Below are positions 1,964-60,330 of a stretch of DNA of 64,000 nucleotides, in pieces. Position 1 is the first letter of the stretch; each line of letters begins with the position of its first letter. Source of the DNA: Serpentinicella alkaliphila. Lineage in GTDB: Bacteria > Bacillota > Clostridia > Peptostreptococcales > Natronincolaceae. The stretch covers positions 2,309,001 to 2,373,000 of the forward strand of contig NZ_CP058648.1 in the NCBI RefSeq assembly GCF_018141405.1. The letters are read 5' to 3'. Under the pieces are notes generated by a model. It ran no database searches, was not told the origin of the DNA, and saw only the letters and a program-made list of their open reading frames with translations. Both the position numbers and the translations under genes were made by a program.

Positions 1964-3910
1964 CCCATCTTTGACAGTTAATAAAGAAAAAAAGCTTGTA
2001 ACCTGTTATAAATAGTAGGTTACAAGCTTTATATATTTGTCCAAAAAGTGCGTAATTTTTTTATCTTTTCGTATCTTTAAAAATATTTTTCATATGTGTG
2101 TTTTTTATTATTTGATAATCCGTTCTGAAGCCAAAAGCCTCATGAAGTGCATCTGTAAAATCTGTGCGTGTGTAAGTTGGAATATAGCCATCGCCAAGGA
2201 TTTCATAAAAATTCATACCCCTTAACTCTCGTATGATTTCAGTACAGGTGAACTTGTTATCTAAGTGTTTTTCAAGATATCTATAAAGCACCATTGCCAA
2301 GAAACAAGTTGTAAAGTGTGCTTCTATACGATCATCTCTTGTTAAGTACACTGGTCTTGCCTTAAATTCACTTTTCATAATTCTAAAGCATTCTTCAATC
2401 TCCCAACGTTTATGATTAACTTTAATAATTTCAGAAGCTTCATCTTCTAAATTTGTGCATACAAAGATAAAAACCATCATATGCCTCTTCTTTTGATATA
2501 ATATCTGAATCCAGTCGATAGAGGTCCTTTTCTGCCACCTCACCATCTGATGTAACGCTTGTTTTTCCTATAAATCTTTTGTAATCGTTCTGATTACACT
2601 TGTTGAGTTTTGATGGATTGTTTTCTATTACCTTAACAAAGACGCTCAATTTGTTTATTTCGAATTTTTCTTTGATAGTCTCTATATTTAATTGAATAAG
2701 TTACAATTAGCTTTTGTTCCAAACCATTTTCTTTAATCCATCGCTCTTTATAAAAAGTAATATCTGCAAAATTGTCTTCTTCAATATCAGAGATATCGAA
2801 AACCTTACTACTACCACTTAAACTCCATCCTTCGCTAGAAAGTGCCCATTCTTTAAGATGTTTTTAAGTTTTTGATTGACTGAGTGGTTATAAAAGCACG
2901 TCCACCTTGATCATTAAATTTCCTATTGTCATTTGACGCTAGTCCAAAGATCTGTGCATACGACAAACTTTGAGAGTTTGAAATCATTAAGTATCTTCTG
3001 TTCTAAAGGCTTTAAAGTGAGTTTGTTCATTAGTATTACCTTTAGTAATGCTAAATGCTAGTGGAATACCATCCCCATCCATAAAAAGACCCATTTGTAC
3101 GATAGGATTAGGTTTGTGTTCCTTTGAATACCCATACTGTTTTAAGCCTTGCTCTTGCTCAATCTCAAAGAAGTAATTCGTACAGTCATAATAAAGAATT
3201 CCTGAATTACGCTTAGAAAGTTTATAACTATTATTATAAAGCTCCGATTGAATATAATCAGTTTCCTTAGAAATAACTTCAAGTGCTCTATAAATATGTT
3301 GAATATCAAAATCAGGTTTTTCTAAAAATCTAGTAGATAGGTTATAGGTGGAAAGCTTAGAACCAGGAAAGATAATCCTACCATATAAAAGTCTAGATAG
3401 TATGGAGTCAAGATTAAAAGTGAATTTATGGCGATTGGAAATCTCTTTACAGATTTTGTGAATTCCTAGATCATGATAAATCTTTTGAAGAAATAGATAG
3501 CCTCCATTAAAAGACTGTTGCTTATCTTTACCAATAAGTTTTGTAGGCGAGTATTGAACCATGATTGTACTATTTTCTTCTTTTTCTTTTTTATTAAGTT
3601 CATCGATATATTTCTTAGCCCATTCAATAGGGTCTTCCCCGTTTAATTTGTTAAGAAGCTCATCATATGTACCTAGTTTTTCAACAATTTTAGTAGTACG
3701 CTTATTTTTTTCAATTATATCCTTTATCACATAAAGTGAAGTAGCATTTTTAGATTTAGAAAGTGATAATCTCATAATAACACCCCCAGTTATCTATATT
3801 ATAACACAATACGATAAAATACGAAAGGAATATTTGAGAAAATTTACAAAAAAATAAAGCCTTTTCAAAGCTTTAGCGATTTTTTTTATTATTCAACTGT
3901 CAAAGACCCG
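1964..3910 (-). mobile_element. IS1634-type insertion sequence, degraded copy (element A)
   Basis: About 1.95 kb between two 207-bp direct repeats. The ends are inverted repeats: TCTTTGACAGTT at 1968-1979 and its complement AACTGTCAAAGA near 3895-3906, preceded by CCCA on one side and CGGG on the other. Just inside the left end a 14-bp stem hairpin (1991-2004 with 2017-2030) followed by AT-rich DNA looks like the transposase terminator. It carries a broken transposase on the minus strand. Long, variable direct repeats are documented for IS1634 (Mycoplasma) and IS1549 (Mycobacterium), which supports the family assignment. It differs from the two near-identical elements at 21695 and 46444. Confidence 0.85.
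2061..3775 (-). pseudogene. IS1634-family transposase, multiple frameshifts
   Basis: Remnant of a DDE transposase. The N-terminal part (about 262 residues, ATG at 3775) contains the first catalytic region (YYDCTNYFFE) and ends at a premature stop at 2987. The middle can be followed only by switching frames between about 2986 and 2650. The C-terminal part (2061-2546) holds the conserved block KRWEIEECFRIMKSEF with the catalytic glutamate region, then RPVYLTRDDRIEAHF. At least three frame changes are needed to read it through, so no active enzyme is expected. The first 60 residues are a KxGxxD/E-rich N-terminus like that in the other IS1634-type copies here, but the overall sequence is clearly divergent from them. 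Confidence 0.9.
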
Positions 3911-21694: not shown

Positions 21695-23590
21695 CCTGAG
21701 TTTATAGGTTCAAAAACTAAAAAGATAATAAAACACTTGAATTTCAGGTGTTTTTTTATTGGAAATTTTGGAAATAATCGTTGTGTACTTCGATGTACTG
21801 TGATATAATAAAAGAGGGTGATTTTATGTTTATTAGAGTGACTAAGAGTCCTACAGCTAAGTATAAAAAAGTATATCTTGTTGAAGGCTACCGTGACGAA
21901 AATGGTAAATCTAAACAAAGAATTATTAAATGCTATGGCAATCTTGAAGAATTAGAGGCTAATGATCCGGATATTCTACAAAAGCTAAAAGATTCTGCTA
22001 AATTGATAACTAAAAACCAAGTAAATCTAACATTGAACCTTAGTGATAGTAACGATGATATGGAAATTGATAAGAACTATGGCTACTTTTTTCTTGAAAG
22101 ACTCTATAATGAGCTTAGTTTACCTCAGTTTTTTAAATCACAAATGCGTAAAAGAAAGCATGTTTTTGACTTGAATGAAGTTTTTCAATTGCTTCTATAT
22201 GGAAGAATTCTGAAACCTGCTAGTAAAAAATCAACATTTGAAAATAAAGATGAGTATTTCGAATCTTTTAAAGTAACTATAAATTCTATTTACGAGTCTC
22301 TCTCTCTAATGAAGGATATTAAAGAAGACCTACAACAACATCTTCATGAACAAGTTTCACAGATCCACGGTAGAGATACTTCACTTGTTTTCTTTGATGT
22401 AACTAACTATTACTTTGAATCAGACTTAGAAAATAATCTTAAAAAAGTTGGTATCTCTAAACAAAAAAGAACAACGCCAATCGTACAAATGAGTCTAGCA
22501 ATTGATAGAGCAGGCCTACCTGTTGGGTATGATCTTTTTTCTGGTAATACCCATGATAGTACAATGCTTATTCCTGCCTTAAAGAATATGAAAAATAGAT
22601 ATGCTCTTGAGAGAGTAATTCTAACAGCAGACAAAGCTCTAAATAGTGGTAAAAACCTAGCTTTTCTTGTAGAAAACAATGATGGTTACATAGTTTCACA
22701 AAAGGTAAGATAAGGCTCTAAGACATTTATAAAAGAAATTCTTAAAGATGAAGGCTACGTTTATAACTCTACTAAAACTTTTAAGATTAAATCTTTCTTC
22801 AGGGAAAGAAAAACTAATAACGAAAATGGTGAGGAAATTACACTCAAAGAAAAAGTTGTATCTTTCTGGGGCTTGATTATGATGCTAGAGAAAAACACAA
22901 AAGAGAAAAATTAGAAGAAAAAATTCAAGAGTATCTTGAAAATCCTTCGAAATATAAAGCTTCTAATCGTTATGGTGTAAAAAAGTATTTAAAAGAAATA
23001 GAGATAGATACTTTTACAGGTGAAGTGGAAGATAAAAAAACGCTCTTAGAGTTTGAAGTCGCTAAGTACGAAAGAGATGTGGCCTTAGATGGGTATTATG
23101 CTCTTGTTACCAGTGAGCTTGAAATGCCTGATGAAGAAATAATTGAAAGGTATAGAGGTCTTTGGAAGATAGAAGAATCTTTTAAAGTTTTAAAGTCAGA
23201 TTTAGAAGGTCGTCCTGTCTATGTTCGAAGAGAGGATAGAATAGAAGGACATTTTCTTATTTGTTTCGTAGCATTATTAATTTCGAGAATTTTAGAGAAT
23301 AAACTCAAAAACAAATACTCTATTAAACGAATACAAGAGTCTCTTAGAAATGCGACGTGTAGATTTATTACCAATGGAATCTACTCACTTAATAAACAAG
23401 ATGAAATTTATAGAGATATCGAAAAATTATTTGGTGTTTCTCTAAATTACAGAAATATAAGAATCGAGCAAATTCGTTCTTATAGGAAAGAAATAGTTCA
23501 CAACATAAAAAAATAAAAACAAATCAGCTATGACCTAGTATTTTTAAGGTGTTTAGCTGATTTTTTGTTCTTGCAACCTATAAACTCAGG
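21695..23590 (+). mobile_element. IS1634-type insertion sequence (element B)
   Basis: 1896 bp with perfect terminal inverted repeats CCTGAGTTTATAGGTT / AACCTATAAACTCAGG. A hairpin with AAAACACTTG / CAGGTGTTTT near the left end should stop incoming transcription, and another (AAATCAGCTA / TAGCTGATTTT) near the right end follows the transposase. About 99 percent identical by eye to the element at 46444, so both moved recently. It lies downstream of miaB and interrupts no gene. Confidence 0.93.
21826..23516 (+). pseudogene. IS1634-family transposase, stop codon plus frameshift
   Basis: DDE transposase that would be 563 residues if intact (deduced by comparison with the copy at 46575). ATG 21826 follows AGAGGGTG. 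Catalytic regions: LVFFDVTNYYFE, ILTADKALNSG and YRGLWKIEESFKVLKSD. Two lesions: GGTGCC in the other copy is TAAGGC here, giving a TAA at 22711, and one base is missing near 22870 (CTGGGGCTTGA against CTGGGCTGCTGA). The C-terminal 163 residues remain open. The lesions are not shared with the sister copy. Confidence 0.93.
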
Positions 23591-41740: not shown

Positions 41741-42037
41741 ATGGGGTATAAGAAAATTAGTGATCAGGATATTAGTTTTCTAAAAGTTATATGTGGTGAG
41801 AAACATGTGTTTATTAAAGAAAAAAATATTCATGAATTTGCCGGAGAAGATCTAACTAATGTAATCTTTATACCTGAAGTAGTAGTTGAGCCACGGACTT
41901 CAGAGGCGGTTTCAGATATTTTAAGGTATGCTTACGAAAATAATATATCTGTAACACCTAGATATAAAGGTAAGGGGCTTAGTTGGGGGATAATGATTAA
42001 TATGAGCAAGGTAAATATGAATAGAAGGGTTAGATAG
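41741..42037 (+). CDS. Short GlcD-like (FAD-binding type 4) N-terminal protein, paralogue 1
   Basis: 98 residues. It matches only the first ~100 residues of GlcD-type glycolate/lactate dehydrogenases: ISDQDISFLKVICGEKHVF, then VVVEPRTSEAVSDILRYAYENNISVTPR. The sequence then departs with KGKGLSWGIMINMSK, where the FAD-binding GxGTGLSGG motif would begin. There is no room for the rest of the enzyme. It has its own AGGAGG and its own terminator that includes the last codons, so it looks like a deliberate small gene or a stable remnant. A paralogue follows at 42130. Confidence 0.7.
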   Translation: MGYKKISDQDISFLKVICGEKHVFIKEKNIHEFAGEDLTNVIFIPEVVVEPRTSEAVSDILRYAYENNISVTPRYKGKGLSWGIMINMSKVNMNRRVR

Positions 42038-42055
42038 AAAAATCTAACCTTTTTG
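42025..42055 (+). terminator. Terminator overlapping end of mini-GlcD gene 1
   Basis: GGTTAGAT / ATCTAACC with a T-run; the stop codon lies in the stem. Confidence 0.8.
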
Positions 42056-42129
42056 TGTATTAGGTATATAAAAATAGCTTCAGATCTATTTTATATATAA
42101 AGAAAAAGATTGAATGGGGGATTGGGTGA

Positions 42130-42453
42130 ATGAACTACAAAAATATTACTGAACAGGATATTAATTTTTTAAAAGGAATTTGTGGTGAAAATAATGTATT
42201 CTTCGGGGAAAAAATAAATATCGATTTATTCCAAAAACAGCTTCCTAAAAATTTATTTATGCATAAAGTTATAGTCGAACCCAAGACAAATAAGGCTGTC
42301 TCAGATATTATAAAGTATGCCTGTGATAATAATATACCAATAAACCCTAGACAACTAAAGACAGGTGCAGTAGGTGGAATATATATTGATATGAACAACA
42401 TCAATAAGGGAATAGAGCTAGATGATGAAAAACTCAATCTATGGTTTAGATAG
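42130..42453 (+). CDS. Short GlcD-like (FAD-binding type 4) N-terminal protein, paralogue 2
   Basis: 107 residues, clearly paralogous to the preceding small gene: ITEQDINFLKGICGENNVFF aligns with its start and VIVEPKTNKAVSDIIKYACDNNIPINPR with its middle. The flavin-binding glycine run is replaced by QLKTGAVGGIYIDMNN. The tail GIELDDEKLNLWFR is not seen in the first copy. GGGGGAT precedes the ATG. Whether it binds FAD or has a new role cannot be told. Confidence 0.68.
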   Translation: MNYKNITEQDINFLKGICGENNVFFGEKINIDLFQKQLPKNLFMHKVIVEPKTNKAVSDIIKYACDNNIPINPRQLKTGAVGGIYIDMNNINKGIELDDEKLNLWFR

Positions 42454-45634: not shown

Positions 45635-45660
45635 AGAGACTCCAAAATGGAGTCTCTATT
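45635..45660. terminator. Bidirectional terminator
   Basis: AGAGACTCC / GGAGTCTCT with an AAAAT loop between convergent genes. Confidence 0.8.
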
Positions 45661-46349
45661 ACTTACTATTATTCTTTATTAACCAATGTAGAACTTGGTA
45701 TCCCCGTTCGGAACAGCCTACACGACCACCAACGGCGCAAGCACAGGCACAAGCACAGGCGCAGGCGCATCCCCCTGTTCCACCTCGATGAAGAGAACTA
45801 CTTCCAGCAATAAAAGCTCCACCTCTATACCCGCCACCATATCTTCCTGAATTATAATTATTAGGGCCGGAGGGTTTAATGAGGATGAATAGAATAATTA
45901 CTATAACTAATATAAATATAGCAGTAATAATAAAACTGCCAATAGAAGTATTATTCTTTAAACTATTTAGCTCAGGAAATGAATCACTTTTATAAATAAC
46001 AGTAACAATGTCAGCTTTTTGATTTGTTCTCATATTTTTTGTTATCCAGGATACCTCAGTATGAGCTGTTTCTGAAGGTTGAACCTTAAAGTCTATAGGG
46101 GAAATGTTTTCAGTATTTAAAATAACTTTAAGCTCATTTATTACTGCAAAATCGAACCACCCAGGTCTAAACTGTAGTGATACAGTATCGTCTCCAGCCT
46201 TATATAACATGGAACGTTGATTGATAGTAAAGCTGAAATTAAATCTATCTCCTTGCTTTGGTAATCTATGAAAGTCCAGTTGAACTTGTGATGTTGCTGA
46301 TTTCAATTCCTTCCCATTAGATATTAATGAAGAAGGGGAATATTCTAAA

Positions 46350-46443
46350 AGAGTAAAATCACTATTTGCTACACCTATTTGTAAATATTGAATGTTAGGT
46401 GGGAAATCTGTCGTAGCCTCATAGTCAAATTCATAGCTTATAT
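46350..46443. repeat. 94-bp direct repeat, left copy (IS target duplication)
   Basis: Same as 48341-48434. Coding sequence of the Cys-Ala protein. Confidence 0.93.
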
Positions 46444-48340
46444 CCTGAGTTTATAGGTTCAAAAACTAAAAAGATGATAAAACACTTGAATTTCAGGTGT
46501 TTTTTTATTGGAAATTTTGGAAATAATTGTTGTGTACTTCGATGTACTGTGATATAATAAAAGAGGGTGATTTTATGTTTATTAGAGTGACTAAGAGTCC
46601 TACAGCTAAGTATAAAAAAGTATATCTTGTTGAAGGCTACCGTGACGAAAATGGTAAATCTAAACAAAGAATTATTAAATGCTATGGCAATCTTGAAGAA
46701 TTAGAGGCTAATGATCCGGATATTCTACAAAAGCTAAAAGATTCTGCTAAATTGATAACTAAAAACCAAGTAAATCTAACATTGAACCTTAGTGATAGTA
46801 ACGATGATATGGAAATTGATAAGAACTATGGCTACTTTTTTCTTGAAAGACTCTATAATGAGCTTAGTTTGCCTCAGTTTTTTAAATCACAAATGCGTAA
46901 AAGAAAGCATGTTTTTGACTTGAATGAAGTTTTTCAATTGCTTCTATATGGAAGAATTCTGAAACCTGCTAGTAAAAAATCAACATTTGAAAATAAAGAT
47001 GAGTATTTCGAATCTTTTAAAGTAACTATAAATTCTATTTACGAGTCTCTCTCTCTAATGAAGGATATTAAAGAAGACCTACAACAACATCTTCATGAGC
47101 AAGTTTCACAGATCCACGGTAGAGATACTTCACTTGTTTTCTTTGATGTAACTAACTATTACTTTGAATCAGACTTAGAAAATAATCTTAAAAAAGTTGG
47201 TATCTCTAAACAAAAAAGAACAACGCCAATCGTACAAATGAGTCTAGCAATTGATAGAGCAGGCCTACCTGTTGGGTATGATCTTTTTCTGGTAATACCC
47301 ATGATAGTACAATGCTTATTCCTGCCTTAAAGAATATGAAAAATAGATATGCTCTTGAGAGAGTAATTCTAACAGCAGACAAAGCTCTAAATAGTGGTAA
47401 AAACCTAGCTTTTCTTGTAGAAAACAATGATGGTTACATAGTTTCACAAAAGGTAAGAGGTGCCTCTAAGACATTTATAAAAGAAATTCTTAAAGATGAA
47501 GGCTACGTTTATAACTCTACTAAAACTTTTAAGATTAAATCTTTCTTCAGGGAAAGAAAAACTAATAACGAAAATGGTGAGGAAATTACACTCAAAGAAA
47601 AAGTTGTATCTTTCTGGGCTGCTGATTATGATGCTAGAGAAAAACACAAAAGAGAAAAATTAGAAGAAAAAAATTCAAGAGTATCTTGAAAATCCTTCGA
47701 AATATAAAGCTTCTAATCGTTATGGTGTAAAAAAGTATTTAAAAGAAATAGAGATAGATACTTATACAGGTGAAGTGGAAGATAAAAAAACGCTCTTAGA
47801 GTTTGAAGCTGCTAAGTACGAAAGAGATGTGGCCTTAGATGGGTATTATGCTCTTGTTACCAGTGAGCTTGAAATGCCTGATGAAGAAATAATTGAAAGG
47901 TATAGAGGTCTTTGGAAGATAGAAGAATCTTTTAAAGTTTTAAAGTCAGATTTAGAAGGTCGTCCTGTCTATGTTCGAAGAGAGGATAGAATAGAAGGAC
48001 ATTTTCTTATTTGTTTCGTAGCATTATTAATTTCGAGAATTCTAGAGAATAAACTCAAAAACAAATACTCTATTAAACGAATACAAGAGTCTCTTAGAAA
48101 TGCAACGTGTAGATTTATTACCAATGGAATCTACTCACTTAATAAACAAGATGAAATTTATAGAGATATCGAAAAATTATTTGGTGTTTCTCTAAATTAC
48201 AGAAATATAAGAATCGAGCAAATTCGTTCTTATAGGAAAGAAATAGTTCACAACATAAAAAAATAAAAACAAATCAGCTATGACCTAGTATTTTTAAGGT
48301 GTTTAGCTGATTTTTTGTTCTTGCAACCTATAAACTCAGG
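46444..48340 (+). mobile_element. IS1634-type insertion sequence (element C)
   Basis: 1897 bp with the same 16-bp terminal inverted repeats as element B and roughly 99 percent identity to it by eye (scattered single changes such as A/G at 46475 region and GTC/CTG near 47806). It is inserted in, and opposite in strand to, the Cys-Ala membrane protein gene, with a 94-bp target duplication. Confidence 0.93.
46575..48266 (+). pseudogene. IS1634-family transposase, two compensating frameshifts
   Basis: Same 563-residue transposase as in element B, with different damage. A T-run is five long at 47284-47288 where element B has six, shifting frame after VGYDLF. Later an A-run (47667-47673) has one extra base. 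Between these the catalytic ILTADKALNSG and the block read correctly in the second frame, and the end (163 residues with YRGLWKIEESFKVLK) in a third. VRGASK is intact here where element B has a stop. Real decay or homopolymer sequencing error are both possible. Confidence 0.92.
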
Positions 48341-48434
48341 AGAGTAAAATCACTATTTGCTACACCTATTTGTAAATATTGAATGTTAGGTGGGAAATCT
48401 GTCGTAGCCTCATAGTCAAATTCATAGCTTATAT
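48341..48434. repeat. 94-bp direct repeat, right copy (IS target duplication)
   Basis: Matches 46350-46443, directly right of element C. Confidence 0.93.
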
Positions 48435-48569
48435 TTAAGCTTCCATCTGTATTAGGTGTTATTTTAACTAACATTTCATGAATAATATCAGGTGGTGTCG
48501 CTGACACGACCTGTAGAGTTAAAAGCAAAAAAACAAATATAGTTATTAATAAACGTTTAATTTTCATAA

Positions 48570-49949
48570 TCAGGCCTCCTTCAATGGACAACTTCCTTTA
48601 GTAGCAAAGTCTTTACGTATTTCTTTACAGGTTTTACTATTCCATATTTTATCCCAAGATTGGGCACGAATGTCCCCAAGAGATGGGCCTTTTAACCAAC
48701 TTTGACATGGTACAACCTCCCCAGTAGGTGTAATAGCCATGTTAGAGAGACAGGCACCACAAACAGGAGCACTTGGTAGGCCTAATTCAATTAGTTCCTC
48801 AGAGGATAACCAGCCTGGTGATGTAAATGAAATTTCCATTATTAGCTCCTTACATACAGAAACAGCTTCGCTTAAGATATCTTTAAGCTCAGTTTTATTC
48901 AAGGCTTTTCCAGTTCTTATTTGTTCTACAGCATTTCCAGTAGGAATTAGACTGGAACAACCAACACAATAAACTCCTAATTCATGAACAAATCGTATTA
49001 GACTTATATAATCTTTATTTCTAGAAACTAAAGGAGTATTGATACTTACGCTTAGGCCTACATCCATTGCATTTTTTATTCCCTGAATAGTTTTCTCCCA
49101 CGCACCCACTTTGCCAACTAAATCATCATGTATTTTAGGGTCATCAGAATAAAGTGTGATTTGTATTCCATCTAGACTTGCACTATGTAACTCATTAGCA
49201 AGCTCTTTAGTTAAATTATATCCACTTGTATTTAGTCTAGTTACAAACCAGGAAGAGTATTTTACCAATTCCACAATATCTGGACTTGTTAATGGCTCTC
49301 CACCTGTAAATGTAAGCATAGGAATCCCTGCATCTTTACATCTATCTATTATCTGTTTCCATTCTGAAGTTTCTAAAGGCTTTTCGATATCCATAAAATC
49401 ACCATAGTCAGCATAGCAGCAAACACATTCTAGAGGACAAGCTCGTTTACTATTTAGAGACATTGGGGCTAGAATAAGATCCATACGATGGGGTGCAGTC
49501 ATATATTGACTGTATTCTTCTAAATTCATTCCTATATTAGTTTCTGGAGGTATATATCCGTTGGTAGCTATGTTTACACCTAAAGTAATTATTTCTCTAA
49601 GATCAGATAAAATTAAGTTTTCTTCTGTTTTAGGATATAGCTCAAGTACTTTTGTAACAACAGTTTTTTCTATTAAATCAGTTTCATGTTCACTAATATG
49701 ACGCTTGTTCTTACAATGATTCTGTAACTCTTTAAAGAATATACGCAGAACTGTAGCCCATGAAGGACCAATAGGTAAGAACCATGTACCGTTAATAATA
49801 AGTTGACTAGGAGGGTCCTTAAGAATTAGTGGTTTGGGTGGTACTAAATGCATTCTTGCTGAGCCTGGCCCATCTGGATCTAGGGTTGCATGGGCAACAC
49901 CATCAAGCCAAGCTTTTCTTTTTCTATCATAATTTTTAAATAAACTCAT
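48570..49949 (-). CDS. Radical SAM protein with SPASM-like C-terminus, putative Cys-Ala protein maturase
   Basis: 459 residues. An N-terminal extension of ~165 residues (MHLVPPKPLILKDPPSQLII, then WFLPIGPSWATVLRIFF) precedes the radical SAM core: CPLECVCC (~173-180) gives C-x3-C-x2-C, and FTGGEP is the SAM-contact motif. The C-terminus holds a cysteine cluster (CGACLSNMAITPTGEVVPC, later CKEIRK and CPLKEA) like SPASM or twitch domains that bind extra clusters. Many peptide-modifying enzymes have this layout. It is immediately upstream of, and coupled to, the Cys-Ala protein gene, so that protein is the obvious substrate candidate. The reaction (thioether, other Cys chemistry, or something else) is not known. 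Confidence 0.85.
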   Translation of the reverse strand: MSLFKNYDRKRKAWLDGVAHATLDPDGPGSARMHLVPPKPLILKDPPSQLIINGTWFLPIGPSWATVLRIFFKELQNHCKNKRHISEHETDLIEKTVVTKVLELYPKTEENLILSDLREIITLGVNIATNGYIPPETNIGMNLEEYSQYMTAPHRMDLILAPMSLNSKRACPLECVCCYADYGDFMDIEKPLETSEWKQIIDRCKDAGIPMLTFTGGEPLTSPDIVELVKYSSWFVTRLNTSGYNLTKELANELHSASLDGIQITLYSDDPKIHDDLVGKVGAWEKTIQGIKNAMDVGLSVSINTPLVSRNKDYISLIRFVHELGVYCVGCSSLIPTGNAVEQIRTGKALNKTELKDILSEAVSVCKELIMEISFTSPGWLSSEELIELGLPSAPVCGACLSNMAITPTGEVVPCQSWLKGPSLGDIRAQSWDKIWNSKTCKEIRKDFATKGSCPLKEA

Positions 49950-50226: not shown

Positions 50227-51003
50227 ATGATGAAAATTATGAAGAGGTATAAACCTGTTTCAATTGTACTTGTGGTATTACTTATGGTAACTATGATGAC
50301 TGGGTGTGTTAACACGACTCCAAGTAATAACAGTACACCTAGTACTCCAGAAGTTATTTTTGATGCAGCTCAATTTCCTAATTGGGTAGAAACTGAAGGT
50401 GTTTGGAGAACAGTTAATAATGGATCATTTAAAGAGGGAGCAGCATATGCACCAACACCTGAGGACTTAGCATCAATTATGAAACTTACAAGTCTAACTC
50501 CTACATCAAGAGGGTTTAACGATTACTTAATGGTAGTTCTTAAGGATGTAGATCAACAAGTAGATGTTGTTGGTGAAGGTAATGCACATGATGGAACAGT
50601 AACCGTTCTAGTATTTGGAGATAGACTTCTTCCTAAAGAAGAAAGTTTAGGAGGACATGATCAATCATTAGATAGAGGTTATTATAACGTGGGGATTGCA
50701 ACGGGATACTTAAATCTTGGAGCGATTAGTTATGGATATGGAACACATATGTTTATGACTACTGAATACACTAGAGGCGGGTCTACAAGAGAGTTAACAA
50801 CAGAGGAAGTATATTTAAAAGATAAGGGATATAAATATGTATTAGGATATGATCCATTAAAACGTGGGGACGAAAATCGTGCAGTAGAAGCCTATGGAAA
50901 TCTAAAATTTGTTTGTGCAGTTGTAATAGGAACGATGGATGAGACTGCTGAAACTAAGGTAACTGATAAGATATATCACGAGAACTGGGTCGTTGCTGAA
51001 TAA
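50227..51003 (+). CDS. Nitroreductase-like lipoprotein
   Basis: 258 residues with a lipoprotein signal (VVLLMVTMMTGC, lipobox MTGC). The mature part resembles the nitroreductase fold: TPTSRGFNDYLMVVL, TVLVFGDRLLP, DRGYYNVGIATGYLNLGAISYGYGTHMF. These recall SRRxxR-type FMN binding and the GxAxxxxxLxAxxxGxG helix of the family, with the classic N-terminal SRRSIR replaced by TPTSRG. It is the first gene of a three-lipoprotein set with ApbE and an FMN-binding protein, so an extracytoplasmic FMN-linked reductase is plausible. GGGAGG precedes ATG. Confidence 0.75.
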   Translation: MMKIMKRYKPVSIVLVVLLMVTMMTGCVNTTPSNNSTPSTPEVIFDAAQFPNWVETEGVWRTVNNGSFKEGAAYAPTPEDLASIMKLTSLTPTSRGFNDYLMVVLKDVDQQVDVVGEGNAHDGTVTVLVFGDRLLPKEESLGGHDQSLDRGYYNVGIATGYLNLGAISYGYGTHMFMTTEYTRGGSTRELTTEEVYLKDKGYKYVLGYDPLKRGDENRAVEAYGNLKFVCAVVIGTMDETAETKVTDKIYHENWVVAE

Positions 51004-51019
51004 TCTTAGTTAGAAAAAT

Positions 51020-51054
51020 ATAAGCACCGACTTTTGTAGGTGCTTATCCTTTTT
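51020..51054 (+). terminator. Hairpin after nitroreductase-like gene
   Basis: TAAGCACC / GGTGCTTA stem followed by CCTTTTT, a probable partial terminator inside the cassette. Confidence 0.65.
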
Positions 51055-51071
51055 AAGGGGGTAACTTTAGG

Positions 51072-52232
51072 ATGAAAAAGATTTCTGCTATATTATTTTG
51101 TATTATATTTATTATGATGGGATGTAATATAGGTAATAAAAGTACTGGGGAACTTACATCCAGAAGAAAAATAAGCTATGATCACTTTGGTACAGTAAGT
51201 TCAGTTATAGTATTTGACGATTTTTCAGCTCCCAAAGCTATAGAACGCTTTGAATCTACATGGCAGGAAATCAACAATATGCTTGAAGAATTAGATAAGG
51301 CAGCTAGTGTTAGTATTCCAGAAAGTGATATATATAGATTTAATATGATTAGATATGAGGAAAGTATTGAAATAAGCCCATTGACTGCGGAACTAATAAA
51401 GATATCTAAGGAAATGTATGAATTTACAAATGGAAAGTATAACCCCGCAGTATATAATTTAGTAGATTTATGGGGATTTACACCAAGATTTAATTATGTA
51501 AATCAAGTTAACGGGATGCCATATGATCGAAATAGAAATGATAATGGTAGTTTTAATCTCCCAGATAATAAATATATTGAGGCATTTCGAGAGCTCTCTG
51601 ACTTCGCAGGAGTAATTTTAAGTGGAAATGATAGTAGTGGTTATATACTTACTAAAAATATAAATGACATAGAAATTGACGGAGTCCTATACTCACTTAA
51701 AATCGATTTAGGTGGAATTGCTAAAGGTTACGCAGCAGATAAAGCGATAGAAATTTTAAAAATGAATGGCTATGAATATGGTTTTGTAAATGTTGGTCTT
51801 AGTAGCTTACAGTTATTGAAGCGAAATGTTTCTAATAAAGGTGCACCAGATGATAATATGTGGGGCATAACTGTTTCAAATCCAAATAATAAAACAGAAA
51901 AATACTTAACTATATTTGATAAAAATACTGGGATTTCTACTAGTGGCACCTATGATTTAAGCTATTTCTTAGATGGGAGAGAATACAGCCATATCATTAA
52001 TCCGTATACTGGAGAGCCTACTACTAGCAGTATCTTAGCTGTATCTATATTAGGTAATAAGTCCAGCGAGGCAGATGCAATCTCAACAGCACTATGTACT
52101 ATGGCAGAAGAGGAAGCTATAGATTTTATGAATACATATTTAGATCATTATAAAGTTGCTTTAATAATAATGGATGGTAAGGATCTTAAGCTAGTGACAA
52201 ATATGAAGGAAGAGGATTATATAGTACATTAA
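51072..52232 (+). CDS. apbE: FAD:protein FMN transferase (ApbE), lipoprotein
   Basis: 386 residues with a lipobox (FIIMMGC). ApbE attaches FMN through a phosphoester bond to Ser/Thr of target proteins outside the membrane. Motifs: NPAVYNLVDLWGF, the metal-binding KIDLGGIAKGYAADKAIEIL, GFVNVGL in place of the usual GNVGGD-type site, HIINPYTGEPTT and AVSILGNKSSEADAISTAL. The glycine-rich VNVGLSSL is slightly atypical. The gene is directly upstream of an FMN-binding lipoprotein that carries the target motif. Confidence 0.92.
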   Translation: MKKISAILFCIIFIMMGCNIGNKSTGELTSRRKISYDHFGTVSSVIVFDDFSAPKAIERFESTWQEINNMLEELDKAASVSIPESDIYRFNMIRYEESIEISPLTAELIKISKEMYEFTNGKYNPAVYNLVDLWGFTPRFNYVNQVNGMPYDRNRNDNGSFNLPDNKYIEAFRELSDFAGVILSGNDSSGYILTKNINDIEIDGVLYSLKIDLGGIAKGYAADKAIEILKMNGYEYGFVNVGLSSLQLLKRNVSNKGAPDDNMWGITVSNPNNKTEKYLTIFDKNTGISTSGTYDLSYFLDGREYSHIINPYTGEPTTSSILAVSILGNKSSEADAISTALCTMAEEEAIDFMNTYLDHYKVALIIMDGKDLKLVTNMKEEDYIVH

Positions 52233-52275
52233 CTTTAAATATAACTCTAGTTCGGTAAATTATCAGGGAGGAGTA

Positions 52276-52671
52276 ATGATGAAAAGTATCTATGGAATTA
52301 AAGGGATAGCATTAATAATTATACTTTTGTTGTTATTAACAGCTTGTTCTTCAGGGGATAAAAAAGAAGTTTTTGTACCGTCATATACAGCAGGTACATA
52401 TACTTCTGAACAACTAGGTTTTAATGGTCCTGTAGTAATTGAAGTAACTTTTACAGAAGATTCCATAGCGGAGATAGTAGTTGTAAGTAATGTTGAAACA
52501 GATTATATTGCAGGACCAGCTCTAGAGGGAATACCTGCAGCTATTATAGAAAATCAGAGATTAAAAGTTGATACTGTATCAGGTGCAACATATACAAGTA
52601 AAGCAATTTTGAAAGCTGTGGAAGACTGTATAATACAAGCAGGGGAAAATGCTGAAGAGTTATCTAAGTAA
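52276..52671 (+). CDS. FMN-binding-domain lipoprotein, ApbE target
   Basis: 131 residues, lipobox LTAC, then an FMN-bind domain. VDTVSGATYTSKAIL contains the SGATxTS flavinylation motif, whose threonine (in SGAT) receives FMN from ApbE. Together with the two preceding lipoproteins it forms an extracytoplasmic electron-transfer unit. No membrane-spanning electron donor (Rnf- or PplAB-like) lies in the window, so the source of electrons is unclear. GGGAGG precedes ATG. Confidence 0.92.
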   Translation: MMKSIYGIKGIALIIILLLLLTACSSGDKKEVFVPSYTAGTYTSEQLGFNGPVVIEVTFTEDSIAEIVVVSNVETDYIAGPALEGIPAAIIENQRLKVDTVSGATYTSKAILKAVEDCIIQAGENAEELSK

Positions 52672-58641: not shown

Positions 58642-60330
58642 ACATGAGTTATGCAGTTCGTGTAAATAAATGTAAATAAGACTGATGTATCGTATATTAT
58701 AATATACTAAAAAATATTTTTGTTTTATATGTCTTGAAATAGCAAAAAAGACTTGACTTTTTAAACCCGCCCCAATAATCAAAGTGAATGGTATTAATAG
58801 CCATTACTCTTGATGAATGGGTGATAAATATGACTCTTGGGAAACCGAAATATAGAAATTTACAACAAGGAAATGGGGGCGGAACGCCAGTTTTAAAAGC
58901 AATTTGGGATAAATTTGATTTTTCACTTCTGCTTACGCAATCGGGTATTGTAAAACGTAATGGTGTACCCACTTGGCTTATTGCTTTTGCTTATGTGGTA
59001 GGACTTATTGCTAATAAAAATTCTGTCTCACGTATTTCTGATTATGCTACTAAGGATAGCTTATTACAACCGATGTTTCGGAATCTTAAAATGGCTCAAT
59101 ATACCTTTAGCCGCTTTTTTACAACTGATTATAATTGGGGTTTATTTAGTTTTAAAAGAGTACAAAGACTACAACAAGAAGAAGAAACTGCATTTACTGA
59201 AGGAGATGTTATTGTACTTGATGATACAAAGGTGGCTCATGCCCATGGAAAGAAAATCCCTTTCCTTTGTTGGTTATATGATAGCTCCATTAAAATAAAT
59301 ATCTGGTGTATGAATATAGTTGCTACAACTGTTGTATTAAAGAACGGACTTAAATATCCATTGTTTTGGCGTATTTGGCGTAAGGTAGAAAATAGCGATG
59401 AAAAACAGACAAAAATAGATCTTTCAAAAGAAATGCTAATGGATATTCGCCGGATTTACACAGGGGTACTATGGGTTGCCATGGACCGCCGGTTTTTATG
59501 CAAAGACTTTTTTAATTGGCTCACAGATCATCAATATGATTGGGTTACTAAGGCAAAACGTAATACTGAGACTTTATCGAAAAGAAATTGAGAATATTAC
59601 AGGCCGAGAACGCTTTATCCCTGTAAAGCCTTCAATGCTTATTAAAGAAGTTTTTTTCAAACTTCTTATTAGTGGTCTAAAGATAAAGTAAGTGCTATAT
59701 CCATACCTAATATTTATATCAAGTTACCCTACCGTTTAGTTGGAAAGCAGGGTAAAGTAGTAACTAAGTATCGTTATACGCCTATTGCAAAAGCAGTTGT
59801 AGCTACAAGACTCAAAGAAGATACTGAAATGATGAAGGATGAATTTGAGAAAAACAAAGAGGTTGCAGCTACATATCGTGGGGCTTACCTTTTGATTAGT
59901 AATAGGGTCGATAATCCTGAAGAAGCTTTAGATGCATATATTAAGCGTTGGAGCATTGAGGTTTTTTTTAGAACTGCAAAACAAGAACTGGGGTTGAATT
60001 CTTGCCACTCAACGTCGGAAAGTCATCATTACGCCCATATTGAGCTCATTTTTACAGCAGAAACTTTACTTGTCTATGCAAGATGGGAACTCAATAATAA
60101 AGGCGCTGAAGAAGGCTTCACCCACGGCGAAATGGTCCGAAACTTTTTCAACGCCACATACCGTATCGTTATAAAAGCACAGCAATGCTTTCAAACTATA
60201 CAAGTACATTTTGACACAGAAGTTAGGCAATTTGCAAGACTTATTGATAAATTTTGGCCGAAGAATTTATTGTTAGGTTGGTTTACTGTGCAAAATTCCC
60301 AGTATATGGAGTCAACTGCATAACTCATGT
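58642..60330 (+). mobile_element. IS4-family insertion sequence, degraded
   Basis: 1689 bp with 17-bp inverted ends ACATGAGTTATGCAGTT / AACTGCATAACTCATGT and a possible 5-bp direct duplication ATGTT (58637-58641 and 60331-60335). It carries one transposase gene with frameshifts. It lies between the MutS-like gene and the integrase remnant. Confidence 0.8.
58830..60323 (+). pseudogene. IS4-family transposase, two frameshifts
   Basis: From ATG 58830 (MTLGKPKYRNLQQGNGGG) the frame runs to LSKRN at 59591, shifts, continues ALYRKEIENITGRERFIPVKP to about 59690, shifts again and finishes with YRGAYLLISNRVDNPEEALDAYIKRWSIEVFFRTAKQE. The last block fits the IS4 signature Y-x2-R-x3-E-x6-K. VIVLDDTKVAHAHG contains the first catalytic Asp. 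Without the shifts the enzyme would be nearly 500 residues. Confidence 0.88.

Follow-up and report, generated by a model that had tools for sequence, protein, structure and literature searches.

A radical SAM enzyme encoded beside a membrane protein whose cysteine-alanine tail is its apparent substrate

Can a radical S-adenosylmethionine (SAM) enzyme be dedicated to the tail of a protein that stays in the membrane? The question is raised by a locus of Serpentinicella alkaliphila (assembly GCF_018141405.1, contig NZ_CP058648.1, positions 2,309,001 to 2,373,000; this stretch of 64,000 nucleotides is referred to as the window), where the gene for a putative radical SAM maturase is directly followed by that of a membrane protein with a tail of six Cys-Ala units. 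A preliminary description, made from the DNA sequence, had proposed that this tail is the substrate of the enzyme. Our analysis makes it likely that the enzyme binds its membrane-anchored partner by the Cys-Ala tail in the cytosol and modifies this tail, probably by thioether crosslinks. That the tail is the substrate is well supported; the chemistry of the modification and the function of the system we infer.

The enzyme is the 459-residue open reading frame of the preliminary description, which was confirmed with its C171-x3-C175-x2-C178 motif, an FTGGEP motif and a Cys-rich C-terminus (feature coordinates are collected in Table 1). A Pfam search identifies Radical_SAM (PF04055, E = 1.3e-19), within which the CX3CX2C motif of the superfamily lies, and SPASM (PF13186, E = 6.4e-11), the C-terminal auxiliary cluster region of the SPASM/Twitch enzymes; both domains are likewise present in 52/52 relatives. 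C171, C175, C178, C331, C397, C400, C415 and C454 are invariant. The SPASM Cys motif is reduced in the main enzyme group, with the full seven-Cys version retained in a sister group (L109-L118). None of the NCBIfam models reached its cut-off, the top score being that of NirJ2 (TIGR04055, 134.2 bits against a cut-off of 500), and the closest solved relative by sequence is SkfB, a sactisynthase. An AlphaFold2 model built from the 52 relatives (mean predicted local distance difference test score of 79.7) places an N-terminal domain of beta strands and then three helices before the barrel and the auxiliary-cluster region. Its top solved structural matches are SkfB (6efn, Z score of 23.9 over 340 residues, model residues 33-457) and SuiB (Z scores of 22.2-23.3 over up to 356 residues; 5v1t with a Z score of 22.5, model residues 14-459), both maturases of ribosomally synthesized and post-translationally modified peptides (RiPPs), and epimerases such as EpeE are also among the matches. 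The SkfB and SuiB alignments reach into the RiPP recognition element (RRE) domains of these enzymes, whereas enzymes without an RRE match from the barrel onwards only.

Only 2 bases separate the stop codon of the enzyme gene (48570-48572) from the start codon of the tail-protein gene, an ATG at 48565-48567; this is one base fewer than first counted. The Shine-Dalgarno sequence AAGGAGG of the tail-protein gene lies within the last codons of the enzyme gene, as had been stated; translational coupling of the two genes is therefore plausible. The tail itself (GGCACACACACACAVGGRVGCSE) was found as described, with exactly six Cys-Ala units C-terminal to the single strong membrane helix, in a gene part whose tail reads GGCACACACACACAVGGRVGCSERGYQVLHWLIKNNSK. 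The preliminary description had treated the second gene as one protein and, though it spoke of intact relatives, had omitted that the frame is split in two by a 1,897-bp insertion sequence. Both parts match the profile of the intact tail protein (5' part, E = 1.8e-7; 3' part, E = 2e-19), and the full tail pattern has one site only in the S. alkaliphila genome. Because the tail gene is interrupted, the enzyme-tail system of this strain is probably inactive and the intact enzyme probably an orphan. Codons within the repeat vary at the locus (TGC/TGT, GCC/GCT), so that the (Cys-Ala)6 stretch is not a pure DNA repeat.

The anatomy of the tail protein was drawn from 78 intact relatives of 311-466 amino acids. 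They start with a signal peptide and an ectodomain, in which a P-x-W-F-D motif occurs, and continue with a membrane helix, a Ser/Gly linker and the tail; in most of them a zinc-ribbon-like Cys4 segment stands between helix and linker. The tail mostly holds 5-9 Cys, chiefly spaced by Ala (of 533 gaps, 354 consist of one Ala), and ends in [GS][GS]GR[AV]GC, to which KDF[YF] and some 20 further residues are usually added. In the last four repeats, both Cys and Ala reach 99-100% conservation at the protein level, with codons that differ (146 TGC, 91 TGT and all four Ala codons). The preliminary description had mentioned, as unverified, similar Cys-Ala tails on other clostridial membrane proteins, and this proved right. 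Weak Pfam matches to DUF2207 (PF09972) were detected in 31 of 45 tail-protein relatives (best E = 0.0012); the member shown here scores 16.5 bits against a gathering score of 24.4, and the sister-group membrane proteins gave no DUF2207 match in Pfam. Proteins of the DUF2207 family are described as having their N-terminus outside the cell and a Gly/Ser-rich C-terminus inside it, and deletion of a DUF2207 gene in S. mutans is reported to affect tolerance of stress (PMC10457818). Given this orientation and the zinc-ribbon-like segment after the helix, the Cys-Ala tail is most likely cytosolic, in the compartment where the enzyme is. A model of the ectodomain (residues 37-210 of the L014 tail protein) resembles the beta domain of ribophorin I/OST1 (Z score of 15.6 over 171 residues, root mean square deviation of 3.0) and, in the fold search, M1 aminopeptidases (Z scores of about 11-12). 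The likeness of this model indicates fold, not function, and that to ribophorin I/OST1 may bear on the fold of DUF2207.

Enzyme and tail occur together. Of 391 genomes scanned in the class, 10 are matched by the enzyme profile (E ≤ 1e-50) and 10 by the DNA pattern of the tail, and the two sets are identical and span seven genera; the reversed tail pattern, used as a control, matches 0/391. The chance of an identical set is about 5e-20 if the sets were independent and the genomes unrelated, and the genomes are in fact related. This co-occurrence was the check that the preliminary description had set beforehand; the pattern it had named as refuting, with either partner regularly found without the other, was not seen, the apparent exceptions being contig ends. 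A scan of genome contigs with the window enzyme as a single query found no relatives because its clade is divergent, and a plasmid search gave no match at the strict limit used. With a two-sequence alignment as query, a scan of 84,980 species genomes returned at least 546 enzyme relatives, and the two-gene cassette occurs in hundreds of gut and rumen bacteria. The best 80 loci, which were examined, belong to Lachnospiraceae, Oscillospiraceae, Eggerthellaceae/Coriobacteriia and one Solobacterium; in nearly all of them the tail gene directly follows the enzyme gene on the same strand, and in L011 and L092 it precedes it. The closest intact pair seen is L005, the enzyme of which is 71% identical; another intact pair is that of Sarcina sp. 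DSM 11001 (L046). Seven loci besides the window appeared to lack a tail (L006, L008, L015, L033, L040, L056 and L089), and in each of these the tail-protein profile finds a gene start running into the contig end. Clustering of neighbouring genes recovered the pair in 75-76 loci, the next cluster (9 loci) consisting of opposite-strand reading frames that overlap the pair. No third conserved neighbour was found in the loci examined, and a protease and/or exporter, as expected near the precursor in a RiPP cluster, is thus not conserved in them either.

At the level of the phylum, a scan covering 398 genomes gave three further groups of radical SAM/SPASM enzymes, each adjoining a Cys-tailed membrane protein, with the tail designs CVSCACACVSCACACACAGGRGAGC, SSCACACACACASSGGCT at the end, and (CHSA)n; the membrane protein is encoded first in two of the three. 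Enzymes of group 2 (L109-L118) share the N-terminal domain of the main group (profile match, E = 1.7e-19) and carry the full SPASM Cys motif, and the neighbouring membrane protein ends in ...CVSCACACVSCACACACAGGRGAGCAQKF. The membrane protein of group 3 (L119-L122) is larger, has the exact end ...SSCACACACACASSGGCT (or GGGGCT), and its gene overlaps or abuts the start of the downstream enzyme gene. In group 4 (L123) a membrane protein with terminal CHSA repeats (...CHSACVSGGAR) is encoded upstream of its enzyme. With the profile of the main-group tail protein, the membrane proteins of both group 2 and group 3 are recovered (E = 1.7e-42 and 4.6e-14). A (CA)4 DNA pattern, searched over the same genomes, is present in 17/398, 13 of which have the enzyme and 4 of which carry simple DNA repeats in unrelated frames; all membrane-protein (CA)4 tails adjoin a related enzyme, and in the two genomes with the enzyme and without the pattern the tail is masked or cut. 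When the six tail labels are placed on a tree of 101 enzymes, they change 5 times, the minimum possible (shuffled mean of 39). Joint evolution of enzyme and tail would be expected to give this result; linked inheritance alone would yield much of this agreement, and the placement of the long-branched sister rows is unsure.

Two observations were made at the sister loci by the way. In L119-L121, of the group ending in SSGGCT, two secreted proteins, one of them beta-repeat-like and the other small, are encoded 3' of the enzyme, possibly as an extended operon. In L123 (L140:4655-6334, minus strand), the membrane protein with the CHSA run stands beside a radical SAM enzyme that has, by eye, a PqqD-like N-terminus; this design merits its own study.

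We propose a mechanism in which the enzyme, translated just before its partner, would use its RRE-like domain to bind the emerging or membrane-held tail, or the segment that follows it. A 5'-deoxyadenosyl radical generated at the first cluster would abstract hydrogen from residues of the repeat, and the Cys sulfurs would most likely become linked, in a series of thioethers, to carbons of the backbone or side chains; thioethers are proposed from the relatives of the SkfB, SuiB and CteB type and from the Cys-rich target. The reaction may involve an open site of the auxiliary cluster, like the one seen in CteB (PMC6231123). Since neither a protease nor an exporter is conserved in the vicinity, the product would probably not be released as a peptide but stay on the membrane as a rigid, capped cytosolic rod for the protein's own sensing or scaffolding role. 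A broader proposition, for which we find the balance even, is that this is a distinct kind of protein modification, widespread among anaerobic bacteria, in which cytosolic Cys-repeat tails are crosslinked into rods and never released, with at least four parallel enzyme/tail designs, and in which radical SAM chemistry serves a resident membrane sensor or scaffold and not a secreted peptide.

Several points weigh against a thioether-forming enzyme acting on the tail. Co-occurrence alone would also fit two proteins that act together without modification. Substrates of the sactionine and ranthipeptide kinds usually provide separate residues as acceptors, whereas those at hand in the tail are mainly Ala, Gly and Ser, so that the bond may be of another type. 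Tail length and follower (KDFY plus about 20 residues) differ between groups. The N-terminal domain gave no significant match to PqqD proteins in a sequence-profile comparison, and it is its modelled fold only that makes it RRE-like. The main rival, which we regard as rather unlikely, keeps the tail as the substrate of a change other than thioether formation, such as epimerization (L-Cys/D-Ala) or a carbon-carbon or methyl modification at Ala. EpeE-type epimerases are among the structural matches, Ala is conserved as strictly as Cys in the repeat, and TvgB modifies repeats of unactivated side chains (PMC9062424). The nearest solved relative is nevertheless a sactisynthase, and the (CHSA)n and CVSC tails of the sister groups keep Cys but not the strict alternation with Ala, a pattern that suggests Cys to be the reactive residue they share.

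Cys-x-Cys repeats bind metals in many proteins. The tail might thus be a metal- or Fe-S-binding segment that aids the enzyme as cluster donor, electron carrier or sensor and is itself covalently unchanged, a reading in keeping with the Cys4 zinc-ribbon-like segment of most relatives. We consider it improbable: the domain layout of the enzyme is that of peptide-modifying enzymes, a metal-binding tail rarely requires its own radical SAM enzyme next door and so strict a pairing, and four differing tail designs track the enzyme clades. We also weighed a heme or cofactor enzyme of the NirJ2/AhbD type with the membrane protein as an unrelated neighbour. This very improbable reading takes its cue from the top NCBIfam score and was rejected on the shortfall of that score (134 bits against 500), the additional N-terminal domain and the strict linkage to the tail protein across many lineages and in both gene orders; the shorter NirJ2-like matches of the phylum scan lack both the domain and such neighbours. 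Finally, there is next to no likelihood that the Cys-Ala repeat is a functionless expansion of simple-sequence DNA. Simple (TGYGCN)n repeats do exist in four genomes (G776, G794, G818 and G873), but they lie in unrelated frames with no membrane protein, whereas the true tails combine conserved amino acids with synonymous variation and a fixed downstream motif, and the reading was rejected on these grounds.

The maturases SkfB, AlbA, CteB and SuiB have in common with the enzyme described here a CX3CX2C core, an SPASM/Twitch-like Fe-S region, an RRE-like N-terminus (here by predicted fold) and a gene that adjoins a Cys-rich target. Sactipeptide-type maturases, however, act on small leader-core peptides, whereas the partner here is a membrane protein with a signal peptide and a C-terminal repeat; a conserved protease, exporter or immunity gene is also absent, and Cys alternates with Ala without obvious acceptor residues. 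Radical SAM enzymes beside targets with short-motif repeats are known from the His-Xaa-Ser system HxsA/B/C, TvgA/TvgB and the Asp-Cys repeat peptides (PMC9062424). These differ in the repeat and in the enzymes (the HxsC model scores 44.8 bits on our enzyme against a cut-off of 267.9), and TvgA lies in a multi-gene cluster with a dioxygenase and transporters, in contrast to the bare two-gene cassette found here. Ordinary DUF2207 proteins share the extracellular N-terminal domain and the low-complexity-rich intracellular C-terminus (PMC10457818), but have Gly/Ser-rich tails and no radical SAM partner described. The heme enzymes NirJ2 and AhbC/AhbD are the closest NCBIfam models by score, yet far below cut-off.

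The preliminary description had taken the system to be new. No Pfam or NCBIfam model naming the pair was found, and literature searches on Cys-Ala repeats with radical SAM, on CACACA and on DUF2207 with radical SAM returned no paper, though an earlier mention is possible; what is already known is the placing of radical SAM enzymes beside repeat-bearing targets. The membrane-anchored, Cys-Ala-tailed apparent target, the bare cassette and the several parallel designs were not found in the libraries and papers searched. The known targets of radical SAM modification are mainly small secreted peptides, cofactors and RNA. If our proposal is true, this chemistry would extend to resident membrane proteins in gut and rumen Firmicutes and Coriobacteriia. 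The pair would offer a handle on uncharacterised DUF2207-like proteins and a compact enzyme with a repeat substrate for bench study, and the four tail designs make substrate rules directly testable.

Table 1. Features of the enzyme/tail locus (positions in the window)
Feature	Position	Strand	Basis
Radical SAM/SPASM(Twitch) enzyme, 459 aa, intact, putative maturase	48570-49949	-	Pfam, conserved Cys
N-terminal domain, residues about 15-135, RRE-like by predicted fold	49545-49907	-	AlphaFold2 model and structural alignments
C-terminal auxiliary Fe-S (SPASM/Twitch-like) region, residues 397-454	48588-48761	-	Pfam SPASM, conserved Cys
Tail-protein gene, 5' part: ATG, signal peptide MKIKRLLITIFVFLLLTLQVVSA, start of ectodomain	48341-48567	-	sequence
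Tail-protein gene, 3' part: remaining ectodomain, membrane helix, Cys-Ala tail, stop	45659-46443	-	sequence
Single transmembrane helix FIITAIFILVIVIILFILI	45878-45934	-	mean Kyte-Doolittle hydropathy 3.67 over 19 residues
(Cys-Ala)6 repeat, proposed substrate region	45734-45769	-	sequence; conserved in relatives
VGGRVGC motif after repeat (family consensus [GS][GS]GR[AV]GC)	45713-45733	-	G, R, G, C 100% conserved in aligned relatives
IS1634-type insertion sequence, 1,897 bp, ends CCTGAGTTTATAGGTT, transposase frame broken	46444-48340	+	size, ends, long target duplication
Target-site duplication, 94 bp, copy 1	46350-46443		exact match to 48341-48434
Target-site duplication, 94 bp, copy 2	48341-48434		exact match to 46350-46443

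The inserted element was assigned to the IS1634 family from its size, ends and long target duplication by comparison with a published account (PMC2266710): members are 1500-2000 bp long with ends starting in C and, in some, unusually long duplications, and the element here has ends CCTGAG. The same element is found twice in the window, at 21695-23590 with an 87-bp exact duplication and within the tail-protein gene. Target duplications of 8-514 bp have been reported for IS1549/IS1634, without a mechanistic model (PMC2266710), and a genome with fresh IS1634-type copies could help on the mechanism. Further transposase remnants at 2061-3775 and 58788-60323 (by eye one IS1634-type-like and one IS4-like) mark the region as rich in insertion sequences. 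No structured RNA was found near the locus at Rfam thresholds. Adjoining the enzyme, at 50227-52671, lie genes that by eye encode a lipoprotein, an ApbE-type flavin transferase and a protein with a flavin mononucleotide-binding domain, likely an extracytoplasmic flavin redox set; these genes are not conserved beside the enzyme/tail pair elsewhere. At 41741-42453, two short open reading frames resemble repeated N-terminal fragments of a flavin adenine dinucleotide-linked oxidase and are probably a decayed duplicated gene.

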